Shown: positions 3,895 to 47,629 of the stretch, piece after piece
Layout: every line of letters starts with the position of its first letter
How positions within the stretch are numbered: position 1 is the stretch's first letter
IMG/VR virus record: IMGVR_UViG_3300001847_000332
Coordinates: 1 to 64,000 of that record
DNA: 64,000 nt
Strand: one strand, 5' to 3'
Source of the DNA: a virus
Notes under the pieces: model-generated
Told to the model about the DNA's origin: nothing
The model's database searches: none
What the model saw: only the letters and a program-made list of their open reading frames with translations
Position numbers and translations under genes: made by a program

Positions 3895-5244
3895 TCAATC
3901 CGTCAAATCAATGAATGCTAGCCCGCCGATGGCGTCTCCAGTGCCCGTCAATACGCGCACTCCGATGGTGTAAATGTCGCTAACTCCAGCGATGGTGGAA
4001 CCCAACTGGAGATCAAAGTTATATCCTGTCGGGCCTACCGATGATCCACGTGACTGATTGGTAGCCGACGAATAATCCAACTGTACACACGTACCGTCCG
4101 TCATAGCCGATGCGGTAATGTCATATTCCACGTTGTTGAATGCTGTTGTTACCCATGACGCACCCGTGAGCGTTGAATTTTTGACCAGTTGTATCTCGTA
4201 GTTGCCAGAACTTGTTGGGAATACCGTTACTAACTGTGGCAACACCACTGCATTCAAACGCGTACTTTTTAATCGAATCGATACTAACGGAATTAACGTC
4301 GTCCCAATGGATGCCAGCGCACTAGTACGACGTGCGATTTGCTGTTTGACTTGCTGCTCATATCCGCCTTCGGAAATTACGGTGGAGCAAATTTGCTTCA
4401 TCGTTGAAGATGATGCGGTAGCGCCGGTATTAGTAATTTCATAACGGACGGGCAAAATTGCAGTAGTCATATAGACCTTAGCAAGGTCATTGGCATTGTT
4501 GAACGTATGACAAATGATCAGTTGCCCGTTGATAACGAAACCACACCGCACGGAACCCACTCCCAGCCACTCCAGGTCGCACCAAAAAATCTGAGATTTG
4601 GTGGTATCCAGCGTGTATCCACTGTCTCCTGTGCCGTCCAGTTTGTCGCCGTTCCAGTCTGCCTGATTGACTGTTCGGGCATCACTTACCGTGCCACTAG
4701 TGTAGGTTCGCAACACAAACGATTTTGTCGTATCCGCTTGTTGGAAAAACACGCCGTTTTGAGAATTAAAGTACCCTACCCGCTGGCGCAAGTTGGTCTT
4801 GGCGGCGTTCATCACAAACGTGCACATCACTTCCAAACTTTTGCCCGGCTGATACGGCATACAGCGATAAGTTTGCCGTACAACCTCGCTACCTGAACTA
4901 GTTGTCACATTTAGATCAAGTGTACTTTCATTAGATTGATACGTTGTGCTGCCGCCCGTTGCCGTTGAAGTGTCAAACTGGTCATCCGCTTGAAAACGAT
5001 TTTGGCTGTCAAACAACGTCATCGGTTCGCTCATGCGAGCACGACCAAAAGCGTCAAGAGCAGTCCCGTAAAAACCTACCTGATATGGTCCTTGATTTGC
5101 CACGAGTTGCCCCAGTACATAATTGAGTTGGTTGAAGTACAACCGCAACACATTTGAATACTGTGCTGCCCATTCGGAGTTGTACTCTACGGGACCGTTT
5201 GGCAATCGCGGAACCGCGGGCATCCGAGCTTCAACAATTGACAT
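3895..5244 (-). CDS. Virion structural protein (tail/appendage)
   Basis: A 449-residue beta-rich, Ser/Thr/Asn-rich protein. It contains features I associate with a structural protein widespread in marine and freshwater podoviruses: a GYFN-x-NGVFFQQ stretch, a WNGDKLDGTG stretch, DLEWLGVGSVRCGFVINGQ and LPVRYEI. It directly follows the P22 gp10-like protein with a two-base gap, so it probably belongs to the tail or its appendages. No enzymatic motif is visible. Assignment rests on operon position and remembered family features. Confidence 0.85.
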   Translation of the reverse strand: MSIVEARMPAVPRLPNGPVEYNSEWAAQYSNVLRLYFNQLNYVLGQLVANQGPYQVGFYGTALDAFGRARMSEPMTLFDSQNRFQADDQFDTSTATGGSTTYQSNESTLDLNVTTSSGSEVVRQTYRCMPYQPGKSLEVMCTFVMNAAKTNLRQRVGYFNSQNGVFFQQADTTKSFVLRTYTSGTVSDARTVNQADWNGDKLDGTGDSGYTLDTTKSQIFWCDLEWLGVGSVRCGFVINGQLIICHTFNNANDLAKVYMTTAILPVRYEITNTGATASSSTMKQICSTVISEGGYEQQVKQQIARRTSALASIGTTLIPLVSIRLKSTRLNAVVLPQLVTVFPTSSGNYEIQLVKNSTLTGASWVTTAFNNVEYDITASAMTDGTCVQLDYSSATNQSRGSSVGPTGYNFDLQLGSTIAGVSDIYTIGVRVLTGTGDAIGGLAFIDLTD

Positions 5245-44069: not shown

Positions 44070-44184
44070 TGAGCACGAGCAGGAGATACTTCGCGTGCGG
44101 ATGAAACAACGGCAAGACGTGGTGCTGGCGGAAGGAATCGAACCCTCGACCGCTCGCTTACAAGGCGAGAGCTCTACCAACTGA
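44002..44184 (+). CDS. Possible 60-residue protein running into antisense tRNA
   Basis: ATG inside the nuclease gene in another frame, encoding MTSKPLDLIGQILADPSLIL and DEHEQEILRVRMKQRQDVV. The last 19 codons (LAEGIEPSTARLQGESSTN) are just the complement of the tRNA gene. The first 40 residues look protein-like, so an original short gene may have been extended or truncated by tRNA insertion. Confidence 0.35.
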   Translation: MTSKPLDLIGQILADPSLILKGDEHEQEILRVRMKQRQDVVLAEGIEPSTARLQGESSTN

Positions 44185-44195
44185 GCTACGCCAGC
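44120..44195 (-). tRNA. tRNA-Thr (UGU anticodon), CCA encoded
   Basis: On the minus strand the 76 bases fold into a full cloverleaf: acceptor GCTGGCG/CGCCAGC, D-arm GCTCAGTTGGTAGAGC, anticodon stem CTCGC/GCGAG with loop CTTGTAA (anticodon TGT), T-arm with GGTTCGATTCC, and discriminator A plus encoded CCA. It reads ACA. It is antisense to all surrounding genes, so it needs its own minus-strand promoter or is expressed from antisense transcription. Confidence 0.93.
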
Positions 44196-44216: not shown

Positions 44217-46091
44217 ATGCCACAAATACTTGTTTGCGACTTTGAAACTTTCTACGACCGCGACTTTAGTTTGTCGAAGCTTACCACGGAGGAGTATGTC
44301 CGCGACTCACGGTTTGAAGCCATCGGTTTAGCATTCAAGCTGAATGATGGCGTTACCACGTGGGTGTCCAAGCCGTCCGTGGCGCGGTGGGTTGCCTCGG
44401 TAGATTGGTCGGACAAGATTGTGGTGTGCCAGAACACAGCGTTTGATGGAGCGATACTGGCATGGCATTACGGCGTGAAGCCGCTGGCGTGGGCGGACAC
44501 GCTGAGCATGTCCCGTGCGCTGTACCCACACGACAAGTCGCATAGCCTCAAGGCGCAGGCGGAGCGCATGGGCATCGGTGCCAAGGGCGACGAAGTGCTC
44601 AACGCGTTGGGCAAGCACTATGACGATTTCTCAGTCGAAGAGCTCTCTCGGTACGCCGCGTACTGCGTGAACGACGTAAACCTCACGCACACCCTGTTCA
44701 CCCGCTACATCGAGCAGGGCTTCCCCAAGCAGGAGCTCAAGCTCATTGACCTCACCCTGCGCATGTTCATCGAGCCTCGGCTGGTGCTCGACAACGCCGC
44801 GCTGGTCGCTCACCTGCAGGCTGTGCGTGAGCATAAGCAGCAGCTGCTCGACGCCGTGCGTGACCAGCTCATTAACGCTGACCCTGACAATGCCGCGGCT
44901 ATCCTTTCCGAGGACATCAAGAAGCTCCTCATGTCCAACGACAAGTTCGCCGCCCTGCTGCGCCAGCTCGGCATTGAGCCCCCGCTCAAGATCAGCCCCA
45001 CCACCGGCAAGGAAACCTATGCCTTCGCCAAGACCGACGAGCCGTTTAAGGAGCTGCAGGAGCACGACGATCTGCGCGTGCAGACACTGGTTGCCGCCCG
45101 GCTGGGCAACAAGACCACCCTTGAGGAGACCCGCACCGAGCGCTTCATCGGTATGTCTGGGCGCGGCGAGTTCCCAGTACCCCTGCGCTACTACGGCGCA
45201 CACTCGGGACGTTGGTCTGGCCAAGACTCGGTGAACCTGCAAAACCTCCCCAGCCGAGGGCCTCACGCCAAGAAGCTTAAGAAGGCCATCCGCGCACCCG
45301 AGGGCTACATCGTCATCGACTCCGATTCCGCGCAGATCGAGGCCCGCACCCTTGCGTGGCTCGCCGGGCAGGACGACCTCGTACAGTCATTCCGTGACAA
45401 ACAGGACGTGTACAAACAGATGGCCAGCTTCATCTACAACGTGGCCGAAGATCAAATCACCAAGGAGCAGCGGCAGGTAGGTAAAGTCGTAATTCTCGGG
45501 GCAGGTTACGGCGTAGGACACACTAAGCTCAAGCTGTTCCTCAAGGCCATGGCCGGTGTCGAGGTGTCCGAGGACGAAGCCCGGCGCATCATCAGCGCAT
45601 ACCGTAACCGCTACGCTGCCATTCCGTACCTGTGGGACAAGGCTAACCGTGCGATTGAGGCGCTGCACGCAGGCCAGACCTTACAGGTCGACGCTATCGG
45701 GCTCGTGCACGTTGAGCCGGGCAAGGGCCTGACCCTGCCGAGCGGCCTGCACATCCAGTACCCAGGCTTGAAGCGCGTGAACCGCGAGAACAAAACCGAG
45801 TGGGCGTACGACGCCAAGGGCATCCTCACTCGCGTGTACGGCGGGCTGTGTGTTGAGAACTTCACTCAAGCTATCGCCCGCTGCGTTATCGCGGAACAGA
45901 TGCTGCGCATCCGCCGGCGCTATCCAGTAGTGCTGACTGTGCACGACTCCATCGCGTGTATTGCTCCGGCGGATGAGCGTGAGCAGGCCACTCAGTATGT
46001 CGTCGAGTGTATGTCGTGGAACCCCAAGTGGGCAGTCGGTTTGCCCCTCGCATGCGAGGCAGGTTCGGGCGATTCCTACGGAGACTGTTGA
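44217..46091 (+). CDS. Family A DNA polymerase with 3'-5' exonuclease
   Basis: A 624-residue replicative polymerase. The N-terminal DnaQ-like exonuclease has Exo I DFET (8-11), Exo II N73-x3-D77 and Exo III Y149-x2-N-D153. The polymerase domain has motif A D368-S-D-S-A-Q-I-E375, motif B K423 to Y431-G432 and motif C H576-D577-S578. It lacks a 5' nuclease. There is no ordinary Shine-Dalgarno; the palindrome sits directly before the ATG. It probably works with the SNF2 helicase and primase-helicase encoded downstream. Confidence 0.95.
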   Translation: MPQILVCDFETFYDRDFSLSKLTTEEYVRDSRFEAIGLAFKLNDGVTTWVSKPSVARWVASVDWSDKIVVCQNTAFDGAILAWHYGVKPLAWADTLSMSRALYPHDKSHSLKAQAERMGIGAKGDEVLNALGKHYDDFSVEELSRYAAYCVNDVNLTHTLFTRYIEQGFPKQELKLIDLTLRMFIEPRLVLDNAALVAHLQAVREHKQQLLDAVRDQLINADPDNAAAILSEDIKKLLMSNDKFAALLRQLGIEPPLKISPTTGKETYAFAKTDEPFKELQEHDDLRVQTLVAARLGNKTTLEETRTERFIGMSGRGEFPVPLRYYGAHSGRWSGQDSVNLQNLPSRGPHAKKLKKAIRAPEGYIVIDSDSAQIEARTLAWLAGQDDLVQSFRDKQDVYKQMASFIYNVAEDQITKEQRQVGKVVILGAGYGVGHTKLKLFLKAMAGVEVSEDEARRIISAYRNRYAAIPYLWDKANRAIEALHAGQTLQVDAIGLVHVEPGKGLTLPSGLHIQYPGLKRVNRENKTEWAYDAKGILTRVYGGLCVENFTQAIARCVIAEQMLRIRRRYPVVLTVHDSIACIAPADEREQATQYVVECMSWNPKWAVGLPLACEAGSGDSYGDC

Positions 46092-46123
46092 GGTATAGTC
46101 AGGGGCTACCTAAGGACCCTACG

Positions 46124-46777
46124 ATGCTCTCTCATTCATACTCCGCTATTAAGGATTTTGAAGGCTGTCCCCGTCGTTACCATGCGGTTCGCATACTGAA
46201 GCAGTTCAAGCAGTCAGATACTGAAGCCACACTGTACGGCACAGCTGTACACAAGGCGTTTGAAGAATACATCCGCGACGGCAAGCCGCTTCCCGAACAG
46301 TTTAAGTTGTTCGAGCCATACGTCGAGCCGCTCAAGAACATTAAGGGCACCGTGCTGTGCGAGCAACGAATGGGCATCCGCAAGGACTTTACTCCTTGCG
46401 AGTTTTTCGACAAGAACGTGTGGTTTCGCGGCGTGCCCGACTTCTTGGCGGTGAACAAAACCAAAGCCCGGATAGCCGACTACAAGACCGGGAAGTCTGC
46501 GCGCTTTGCCGACCCCGACCAGCTCGAGCTGATGGCAGCGATGGTGATGGCACATCATCCTGAGGTTACACATGTGTCCGGGATATTGTTGTTTGTCGTA
46601 GCTCGAGATGTGGTCAAAGCAGAATTTTCGCGCGACATGCTTCCAAACATCTGGTCAAAATGGGCAGGCCGCGCTAGTATGATTGAGTCAGCTGTGGATC
46701 ACGGCGCATGGGGGGCTAAACCCTCCCCGCTGTGCCGGTTCTGTCCGTTGACGCAAGAAGCATGTGAACACAGATAG
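46124..46777 (+). CDS. Cas4/RecB-like PD-(D/E)xK nuclease
   Basis: A 217-residue nuclease. LSHSYSAIKDFEGCPRRYHA opens it; the nuclease core has GVPDF (103-107) and ARIADYKTGK with D119 and K121. Cysteines C15, C204, C207 and C214 have the spacing of the Fe-S cluster in Cas4, AddB and Dna2 enzymes. It probably trims replication or recombination ends. I start at the ATG 32 bases after the polymerase stop rather than an in-frame start inside the polymerase. Confidence 0.88.
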   Translation: MLSHSYSAIKDFEGCPRRYHAVRILKQFKQSDTEATLYGTAVHKAFEEYIRDGKPLPEQFKLFEPYVEPLKNIKGTVLCEQRMGIRKDFTPCEFFDKNVWFRGVPDFLAVNKTKARIADYKTGKSARFADPDQLELMAAMVMAHHPEVTHVSGILLFVVARDVVKAEFSRDMLPNIWSKWAGRASMIESAVDHGAWGAKPSPLCRFCPLTQEACEHR

Positions 46778-46787
46778 TGCAACATGG

Positions 46788-47358
46788 CCCCCAGCCACCG
46801 GTGGGGTAAAACAGTGGCAGCTGTAGGTAGGACTGCTCGGATCATCAGCGTCTCCCCCTACTGATACAGCAGGCCCCCGTCTCTCCGGGGGGCCAACACG
46901 CATGAGGATTGGCGCATAAATATCGGTCATGGGGAATGAAGTCGCGCTCTGGGTTCGAAACCAACGTGCACTGCCCTTCATCCCGATTGAGCGTAACGGA
47001 TCGCAACCGTAAACAGTCCTCAACCGTGTTGGTGAATGCGCAAGCTGATGCGCAACGAGTTGTGTCTGATACGTGGCGTGGCTGGGACAGTGCCGAATCG
47101 GTAAGGTTGAGTGCCCCAACGAATAACACAGACTGGTCACACGTCTTAATGCAGAAATGCCGGAGATCAGCACCGGCCACCAACACTTGACCGCAGGGAG
47201 AGACCTGCCTGATTAGGGAGCCGGATATTCCTTTGACACCTCGGAAAGACGAGGGCTAACACACATGCGTCCTGAGCGGCTAGGTGGGGGAACACCTAGT
47301 GCGCGCCCCAAGGGCGCAGCCGTGTTAGCATAAGGTAAAAGTTTTTGGCTTACGCCAA
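46788..47358 (+). ncRNA. Candidate large structured RNA
   Basis: Nearly 600 bases between two nuclease genes with no convincing frame but many complementary helices. They include GCTGTAGGTAGG with CCTACTGATACAGC (46820-46831/46857-46870), GGCCCCC/GGGGGCC (46872-46894), ATGAAG/CTTCAT plus GGG/CCC (46932-46984), TGCGCA/TGCGCA (47037-47054), GCCGG/CCGGC, GCAGG/CCTGC, CCTCG/CGAGG. An outer stem GCTAACAC/GTGTTAGC (47255-47329) encloses CTAGGTG/CACCTAG and GCGCCC/GGGCGC. A G-T pair in the first helix favours the plus strand. Size and style recall ornate phage RNAs such as GOLLD, but identity is unknown. Confidence 0.6.
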
Positions 47359-47371
47359 CCGGGATCGCTAA

Positions 47372-47629
47372 GTGGCTACGAAAAAACGTAATTATGCGCG
47401 TGAATATGCTCTGTATCAGGGTACCCCGGAGCAACTGAAGAAACAGTCCGAACGGCACAAGGCCCGGCGTGCCTACGAAAAGGCTAACGGCAAGCTGCCG
47501 GACAGTATGGATGTGGACCACGTGAAGCCCTTGAGCAAGGGCGGAACCAGTAAACTAAGCAACCTACGGGCCGTGCCCAAGTCGAAGAACAGAAGCTTTG
47601 CGCGTACCAGTACGAACAAGGTTAAGTAG
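47372..47629 (+). CDS. HNH endonuclease
   Basis: An 85-residue nuclease from GTG. MDVDHVKPLSKGGTSKLSNL with H50 and N64, and KSKNRSF with N73 form the HNH core. Lys/Arg-rich ends fit DNA binding. It may be a free-standing homing-type enzyme that protects its region. No group I or II intron boundaries were recognised around it. The ribosome site is weak, and the structured RNA ends just upstream. Confidence 0.85.
   Translation: MATKKRNYAREYALYQGTPEQLKKQSERHKARRAYEKANGKLPDSMDVDHVKPLSKGGTSKLSNLRAVPKSKNRSFARTSTNKVK

Follow-up and report, generated by a model that had tools for sequence, protein, structure and literature searches.

The gap between two nuclease genes

The locus raises the question of what occupies a long gap between two nuclease genes of a virus. 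The window analysed here is the whole stretch of 64,000 nucleotides, which was taken from a virus record of 64,939 bases. In the initial annotation positions 46788-47358 were described as free of supported genes and read as a candidate structured noncoding RNA, which might be one of the large ornate RNAs such as GOLLD and ROOL or a new class. The gap was borne out, with a somewhat larger extent, and Pfam confirmed both flanking nucleases:

46007..46777, plus strand: PD-(D/E)XK (Cas4-like) nuclease gene, upstream of the gap (Pfam PDDEXK_1, E 1e-16)
46778-47371: gap of 594 bases, from the stop of the PD-(D/E)XK nuclease to the start of the HNH gene, without supported gene
47372..47629, plus strand: HNH endonuclease gene, downstream of the gap (Pfam HNH_3, E 8e-6)
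44120-44195, minus strand: tRNA-Thr (TGT), upstream of the polymerase gene; also in the relatives L365, L367 and L371

The frames crossing the gap had been regarded as noise, and indeed none of the four ORFs tested reaches the curated Pfam cut-off. Protein coding of the gap was rejected, as no Pfam family lies above the cut-off and as, in 150 homologous cores, the insert lengths fall into each of the three frames about equally often (45/48/57), i.e., without frame conservation. Folding of the plus strand yields a modest gain over shuffled sequences (z -2.27, with 2 of 100 shuffles equally good), and for this reason the folding energy alone is no proof of structure. The pairs of the core, described below, comprise 28 G.U against a single A.C when read on the plus strand, which is therefore the RNA strand. 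The analysis confirmed that the gap 46778-47371 is structured noncoding RNA on the plus strand. Judged from sequence comparisons, it appears to be an array of separate small structured RNA units of an apparently undescribed kind.

Rfam returned no match over the gap even at E<=10, except for a chance-level fragment. The models for group I/II introns and HEARO gave no match in the window, neither did RF00039 (DicF), and Rfam contains no family for the type I core or for the P0/P1 units. A search of open-access papers on structured RNAs in phages, on dicF and on tRNA-like RNAs found no earlier description of the type I RNA. The part of the initial reading that stood is thus a structured noncoding RNA of a class absent from Rfam, the homologues of which often lie near phage tRNA genes. 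The window itself has only one tRNA gene, located 2.6 kb from the gap and on the opposite strand.

Architecture of the array

A unit can be read as a cassette, in which a leader hairpin P0 is followed by an inner RNA closed by the helix P1, with one strand, X', common to P0 and P1. The window holds two units, preceded by a conserved module termed domain A. All features lie on the plus strand:

46788..46870, plus strand: domain A, the first module of the locus, conserved (mean identity of 72% among six relatives in alignment A4)
46820-46831 with 46857-46870, plus strand: domain A stem GCTGTA-GG-TAGG / CCTA-CTGA-TACAGC
46872..46894, plus strand: strong GC hairpin GGCCCCC/GGGGGGCC before unit 1 (sequence, fold)
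46893..47032, plus strand: leader hairpin P0 of unit 1, preceding the core; 5' side with X CCAACAC (46893-46899), spacer GCA and Y TGAGGATT (46903-46910); 3' side with Y' AGTCCTCA (47015-47022), spacer ACC and X' GTGTTGG (47026-47032); apical part with T-loop-like GGTTCGAAACC (46951-46961)
47026..47186, plus strand: core of unit 1 (type I), 161 nt (covariation; covariance model R1, 90.9 bits, with the window in the training alignment and its relation to the other cores found by blastn beforehand)
47026-47034 / 47178-47186, plus strand: P1 of unit 1, closing helix GTGTTGGTG / CACCAACAC; linker AA after the 5' strand
47037-47041 / 47050-47054, plus strand: P2 of unit 1, loop AAGCTGAT
47055-47158, plus strand: variable insert of unit 1, in the position of the tRNA anticodon arm
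47159-47163 / 47173-47177, plus strand: P4 of unit 1, loop AGATCAGCA, abutting P1
47193..47208, plus strand: spacer hairpin GCAGG GAGAGA CCTGC (sequence only)
47235..47254, plus strand: GACA-hairpin GACACCTCGGAAAGACGAGG before unit 2 (same element before units in L220/L221, L364, L367 and L371)
47256..47329, plus strand: leader hairpin P0 of unit 2 (MFE, P0 consensus); 5' side with X CTAACAC, spacer ACA and Y TGCGTCCT (47266-47273); 3' side with Y' AGGGCGCA (47311-47318), spacer GCC and X' GTGTTAGC (47322-47329)
47332..47356, plus strand: short tail domain of unit 2, AAGGTAAAAGTTTTTGGCTTACGCC (similar tail after the last P0 in L367 and L371)

The arms of the domain A stem covary among the six relatives (GCTGTA/TACAGC, GTTGCA/TGCAAC, GATGTA/TACATC) and the domain probably holds an H-type pseudoknot formed by CCCC/GGGG plus GCCAC/GTGGC. 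The stem carries a conserved GG/CTGA internal loop, and domain A is also present in relatives without any unit; possibly it is the anchor of the array. The GC hairpin following it is swapped for a GACA...GGAAAGAC hairpin in the relatives L366, L367 and L370. A hairpin of the plan GACA-stem-GAAAGA-stem recurs ahead of many units, in the window as well as in L220, L364, L367 and L371.

An 8-bp long-range stem had been reported in the gap, and it was recovered as pairing of GCTAACAC (47255-47262) with the X' strand of unit 2, enclosing the two strong hairpins described with it (47280-47299 and 47303-47317). The stem is no more than the leader hairpin of unit 2.

Covariation of the type I core

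A sensitive blastn search against phage records gave matches in 153 records. Most of these matches fall on a pair of short conserved blocks that keep their order; in the window the blocks read GTGTTGGTGAATGCGCAAGCTGATGCGC and GCCGGAGATCAGCACCGGCCACCAACAC. The two blocks pair with each other and thereby make up P1 of the type I core. Phages of Klebsiella and E. coli have P1 as GTTGTGGTG/CACCACAAC, others have it as GGTCTG/CAGACC or AGAGG/CCTCT. P2 has the form TGCGC-loop-GCGCA, with compensatory variants, e.g., TGCGT/ACGCG, TGCGA/TCGCA and TACGC/GCGTA, and P4 the form GCCGG-loop-CCGGC. In 72 diverse cores 95.8% of the pair cells form, 16 of the 25 pairs changed on both sides and 169 such cells were counted; none of 500 shuffles reached any of the five covariation measures. 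Covariation in homologues, the check set beforehand for a structured RNA, was thus strongly passed. As this set of 72 cores had been filtered for pairing, cores were additionally picked by P4 and the P2 loop only, and in this test, which is unselected for pairing, 7.25 of 8 P1 positions pair compared with 4.67 in a control mixing the strands of different cores.

The loops of P2 and P4 contain the exact complements GCTGAT/ATCAGC and are nearly invariant. Since they hardly vary, the loop-loop complementarity is supported by conservation and not by covariation; the chance of finding a 6-nt complement in loops of 8 and 9 nt is about 0.3% by our own rough count. The insert between P2 and P4 is between 5 and 165 nt long in homologous cores, with minimal cores of less than 100 nt carrying inserts of 5-12 nt, and it is weakly structured (mean z -0.5). 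A role of the insert as antisense RNA to its own phage was considered and dropped, as no excess of antisense matches to the own locus was seen.

It was considered whether the units are decaying tRNA genes or mobile DNA cassettes with an RNA fold that has no present function. The interchange with tRNAs, the exchange of cassettes and the fast turnover reported below fit such an origin, but strong compensatory evolution, invariant loops and the asymmetry of G.U over A.C pairs persist over unrelated phages, and in view of this covariation we regard it as highly improbable.

The leader hairpin P0 and its exclusion of P1

P0 is often present upstream of P1, and its plan is fixed as X-spacer-Y...Y'-spacer-X', with X' being the 5' strand of P1. 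X' can pair with X or with the 3' strand of P1, never with both, therefore the outer part of P0 and P1 are mutually exclusive. All 13 arm positions of P0 are paired in 44 of 138 type I cores (32%) against 5.4% of the controls, and unit 1 of the window reaches 13/13. The arms covary, e.g., CACAAC/GTTGTG, CAACAC/GTGTTG, CATCAC/GTGATG, TGCATC/GATGCA and CATCAT/ATGATG. For one version of P0 in IMG/VR the partner strand is complete in 117 of the 126 independent matches listed, with Y and Y' covarying; among the matches listed the inner domain that follows is of type I in 17, and dozens of others occur. Apart from type I, the inner domains that follow P0 mostly share this closing P1, and the majority are not tRNA-like.

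A tRNA-like connectivity

The core runs from P1 over a 2-nt linker to P2, the insert and P4, which abuts the 3' strand of P1 with a 0-nt linker, and the loops of P2 and P4 are complementary. The order of acceptor stem, D-arm and T-arm with 2-nt and 0-nt linkers was found in alignment A1 and in a fixed-offset test. The predicted connectivity is the topology of a tRNA in which the anticodon arm is replaced; this refers to topology, and membership in the tRNA family is not claimed. The core shares with tRNA (RF00005) an acceptor-like helix of 7-9 bp, the 2-nt linker, D-arm-like and T-arm-like hairpins and interacting loops. In contrast to tRNA, type I cores have no anticodon arm but the insert in its place, the P4 loop does not show the T-loop consensus TTCRANY, and CCA is mostly not encoded: it was found at offsets 7-9 in 34 of 133 cores, the window not being among them. 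Given the missing TTCRANY and the small share of cores that encode CCA, aminoacylation is unlikely. ARAGORN and Rfam reported no tRNA over the gap.

tmRNA, viral TLS and mascRNA are further tRNA-like RNAs. With tmRNA and other tRNA-like RNAs the core has in common a tRNA-like body with other RNA in place of the anticodon arm; unlike tmRNA, it has no tag ORF and no ARAGORN call, it is not a chromosomal housekeeping gene, and its insert is freely exchanged. A further connection to tRNA is seen in the leader, as the same P0 leader also heads real tRNAs. Another version of P0 is followed by an ARAGORN-called tRNA in three cases (Arg, Gly and Gln), and in an E. coli prophage of strain 7_33_80A a leader 83% identical to an e14-like leader precedes tRNA-Arg. 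In L739, L545 and L648 P0 is followed by a tRNA-like RNA with canonical T-arm and D-arm and with another structure for the anticodon arm.

Exchange of inner domains and turnover of units

The E. coli prophages L220 and L221 have 98%-identical flanks and the same outer P1, the inner domain being of type I in one and of type II in the other. Conversely, 34 pairs of instances share the same or nearly the same insert (up to 100% identical) although their P1 and flanks differ; mEp460 and P1-like elements, e.g., have the same insert of 78 nt. The number of units at the locus of the window is 0, 1, 2 or 3 in relatives, with two in the window, one in L371 and three in L367. L366, L368 and L369 (84-88% nuclease identity) and L370 (82%) have only domain A and a hairpin, and in more distant relatives mostly a few tens of bases or less separate the two nuclease genes. 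The hairpin stretch of L366, L368 and L369 ends in CAACAC; L366 and L367 are identical through CAACAC and diverge after it, which therefore marks the start of a unit. In L374 (519-1250), another relative of this locus, a small ORF is inserted after the first hairpin and is followed by P0.

These observations bear on the suggestion that the gap encodes a single large ornate RNA. GOLLD and ROOL assemble via intermolecular kissing loops (PMC12286853). The units resemble these structured phage RNAs in being phage-borne, in lying near tRNAs and in having kissing-type loops, so that an RNA-only multimer held by complementary loops is conceivable. However, the Rfam models of GOLLD and ROOL have no match in the window, either at the gathering threshold or at E<=10, and none in the 20 homologous loci searched; sequence and fold are unrelated, and GOLLD and ROOL are single, much larger RNAs, whereas minimal type I cores are below 100 nt and close relatives carry 0-3 units. 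The order of P1, P2 and P4 lets the loops meet within one molecule, as in tRNA, and given this connectivity an internal contact is simpler than dimerisation by loop kissing. We therefore regard a single large RNA as very unlikely; it was this half of the earlier suggestion that fell, the hallmark of the gap being the 161-nt tRNA-like core.

Distribution in phages and bacterial genomes

The records found by blastn belong to very different phages of Klebsiella, E. coli, Pseudomonas, Acidovorax, Erwinia and others, with genomes of about 40 to 160 kb. The pattern scans of IMG/VR for each block give the abundance as an at-least value. The type I RNA ranges over gamma- and betaproteobacterial phages including phage P1 and BASEL phages, and its lambdoid version is present in 1773 of 5426 complete E. 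coli genomes (33%). The P4 motif matched 119 times in genome contigs, and seven of these matches have P1 and P2 as well; they come from genera such as Stutzerimonas, Pseudocitrobacter, Pandoraea, Pseudomonas and Xanthomonas, the named hosts being gamma- or betaproteobacteria. The remaining contig matches, without P1 and P2, are chance, and a wider presence outside phage hosts was dismissed. Among the BASEL phages the type I blocks are found in PQ850597 (Bas80), PQ850598 (Bas77), PQ850625 (Bas78) and PQ850629 (Bas79).

In phage P1 (L361, NC_005856) two units lie, by the type I model, between trnT and tciA, where antisense ORFs are annotated:

L361 3315-3422 (record 69814-69921): first P1 unit
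L361 3576-3705 (record 70075-70204): second P1 unit

The ORFs in question, plp and upl, run antisense over or just short of the RNA units and are probably not genes. The P1-like plasmid pMS6198C (L218) carries at 4011-4831 three model matches and one degenerate unit in tandem, from tRNA-Thr to the next gene, and its last P1 helix, which runs into a T-run, may double as terminator. In Pseudomonas phage PS-1 (L009) the Rfam Proteo-phage-1 RNA (RF03044) lies at 2764-2843, about 150 nt upstream of the type I core.

Action in cis or in trans

The units could be cis-acting leaders, i.e., antiterminators like the put RNA of HK022, attenuators or translational switches for the following operon, with the exchange of P0 and P1 as switch. 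Their positions are often leader-like, e.g., between the cI-like ymfK and yfdP or between the antiterminator Q and holin, long ORFs next to the RNA mostly run in its direction if they have database support, and one relative, of type III, lies in the dicB leader; the mutual exclusivity of P0 and P1 also fits. Against a role in cis, the genes downstream of the units are unrelated and encode endolysin, HNH, ParB-like, terminase or methyltransferase proteins, and the RNA is often followed by a terminator of its own: intrinsic terminators are located within 170 nt downstream of 40 of 140 cores compared with 2 of 145 shuffled ones, and upstream of 13 of 140. Of the tRNAs within 2 kb of cores 41 of 43 are on the same strand, and in HC6 and KP591P1 the RNA and the tRNAs are oriented against their flanking genes on both sides. 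The terminators, the same-strand tRNAs and the orientation in HC6 and KP591P1 favour an RNA acting by itself. HK022 put RNA shares with the units leader positions in some prophages but has a different fold; the HK022 stretch tested gives only a weak, chance-level match to the covariance model (E 0.24), and put was rejected as a relative. Taken together, a cis-acting leader is rather unlikely. A further argument against it, that 40% of the downstream ORFs seemed to be opposite to the RNA, was withdrawn because few long opposite ORFs have PHROG support.

The DicF locus of E. coli and processing by RNase III

The dicBF operon of the Qin prophage in E. coli K-12 contains two units of the P0/P1 type (K-12 EMG2):

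L362 3923-4118: leader of DicF, type II inner domain directly upstream of DicF, with its own P0
L362 4201-4334: leader of dicB, a relative of type III, detected with the type I model (E 6e-5)

The DicF precursor is processed by RNase III and RNase E (PMC10448788, PMC5069750), and the longer DicF species of K-12 is 190 nt long and RNase III-dependent (PMC10448788). Counting 190 nt back from the 3' end of DicF leads to L362:3995, within the 3' strand of P0, and from this published length we infer that the RNase III cut falls in P0. The DicF precursor (RF00039) shares the P0/P1 frame with the units, at allelic loci; it differs from type I in its type II inner domain and in the 53-nt antisense RNA downstream. 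The Rfam family covers these 53 nt only.

A unit might accordingly be a mere processing handle, i.e., part of a precursor from which a short antisense RNA, like DicF, is cut from or just after the unit as active molecule. The processed K-12 sister unit argues for it, and so does a DicF-like hairpin with a T-run after the type I and II units of L220/L221. Set against this, no DicF-like RNA was found 3' of the window core, and RF00039 matches K-12, next to the sister unit, and no other homologue tested; tRNA genes occupy the same slot, and the core is conserved far more than the sequence 3' of it. We consider this explanation unlikely.

A proposed scaffold for exchangeable RNA cargo

Sequence comparison has established P0, P1, P2 and P4, the complementarity of the loops, the exchange of inner domains and the gain and loss of units at the locus. 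For the array as a whole we propose, with about even confidence, a set of cassettes in which each unit is a stable, RNase III-matured tRNA-like scaffold that presents exchangeable RNA cargo in trans. In unit 1, P1 would act as acceptor stem, P2 as D-arm and P4 as T-arm, with the loops meeting as elbow. The array would be transcribed together with the neighbouring genes. P0 would presumably fold first and then be cut by RNase III, by analogy with the sister unit behind the 190-nt DicF species; cleavage would remove X, free X' for P1 and release the stable scaffold. The scaffold would stabilise and present the insert, which may act in trans on a target in the host or in a competitor, in host takeover or counter-defence. 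By this proposal, the rapid replacement of inserts and units in unrelated phages would be explained by inserts acting in trans on such targets. More tentatively, one possibility is that gamma- and betaproteobacterial phages maintain a common library of horizontally transferred RNA cassettes that use natural tRNA scaffolds, with hypervariable cargo for the anticodon arm and a leader cut by RNase III, the cassettes being trans effectors, e.g., in counter-defence or host takeover, and the E. coli DicF locus representing one domesticated branch.

Phage P1, the BASEL laboratory phages and roughly one in three complete E. coli genomes carry this RNA, and its model is one for annotators to add. The units expose plp and upl of P1 as probable false genes, account for the leader that precedes the much-studied DicF, and constitute a ready laboratory system for the long-standing question of the role that stable RNAs other than tRNAs have in the tRNA clusters of phages. 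Should the scaffold idea hold, phages would use exchangeable RNA effectors as they use exchangeable accessory proteins.
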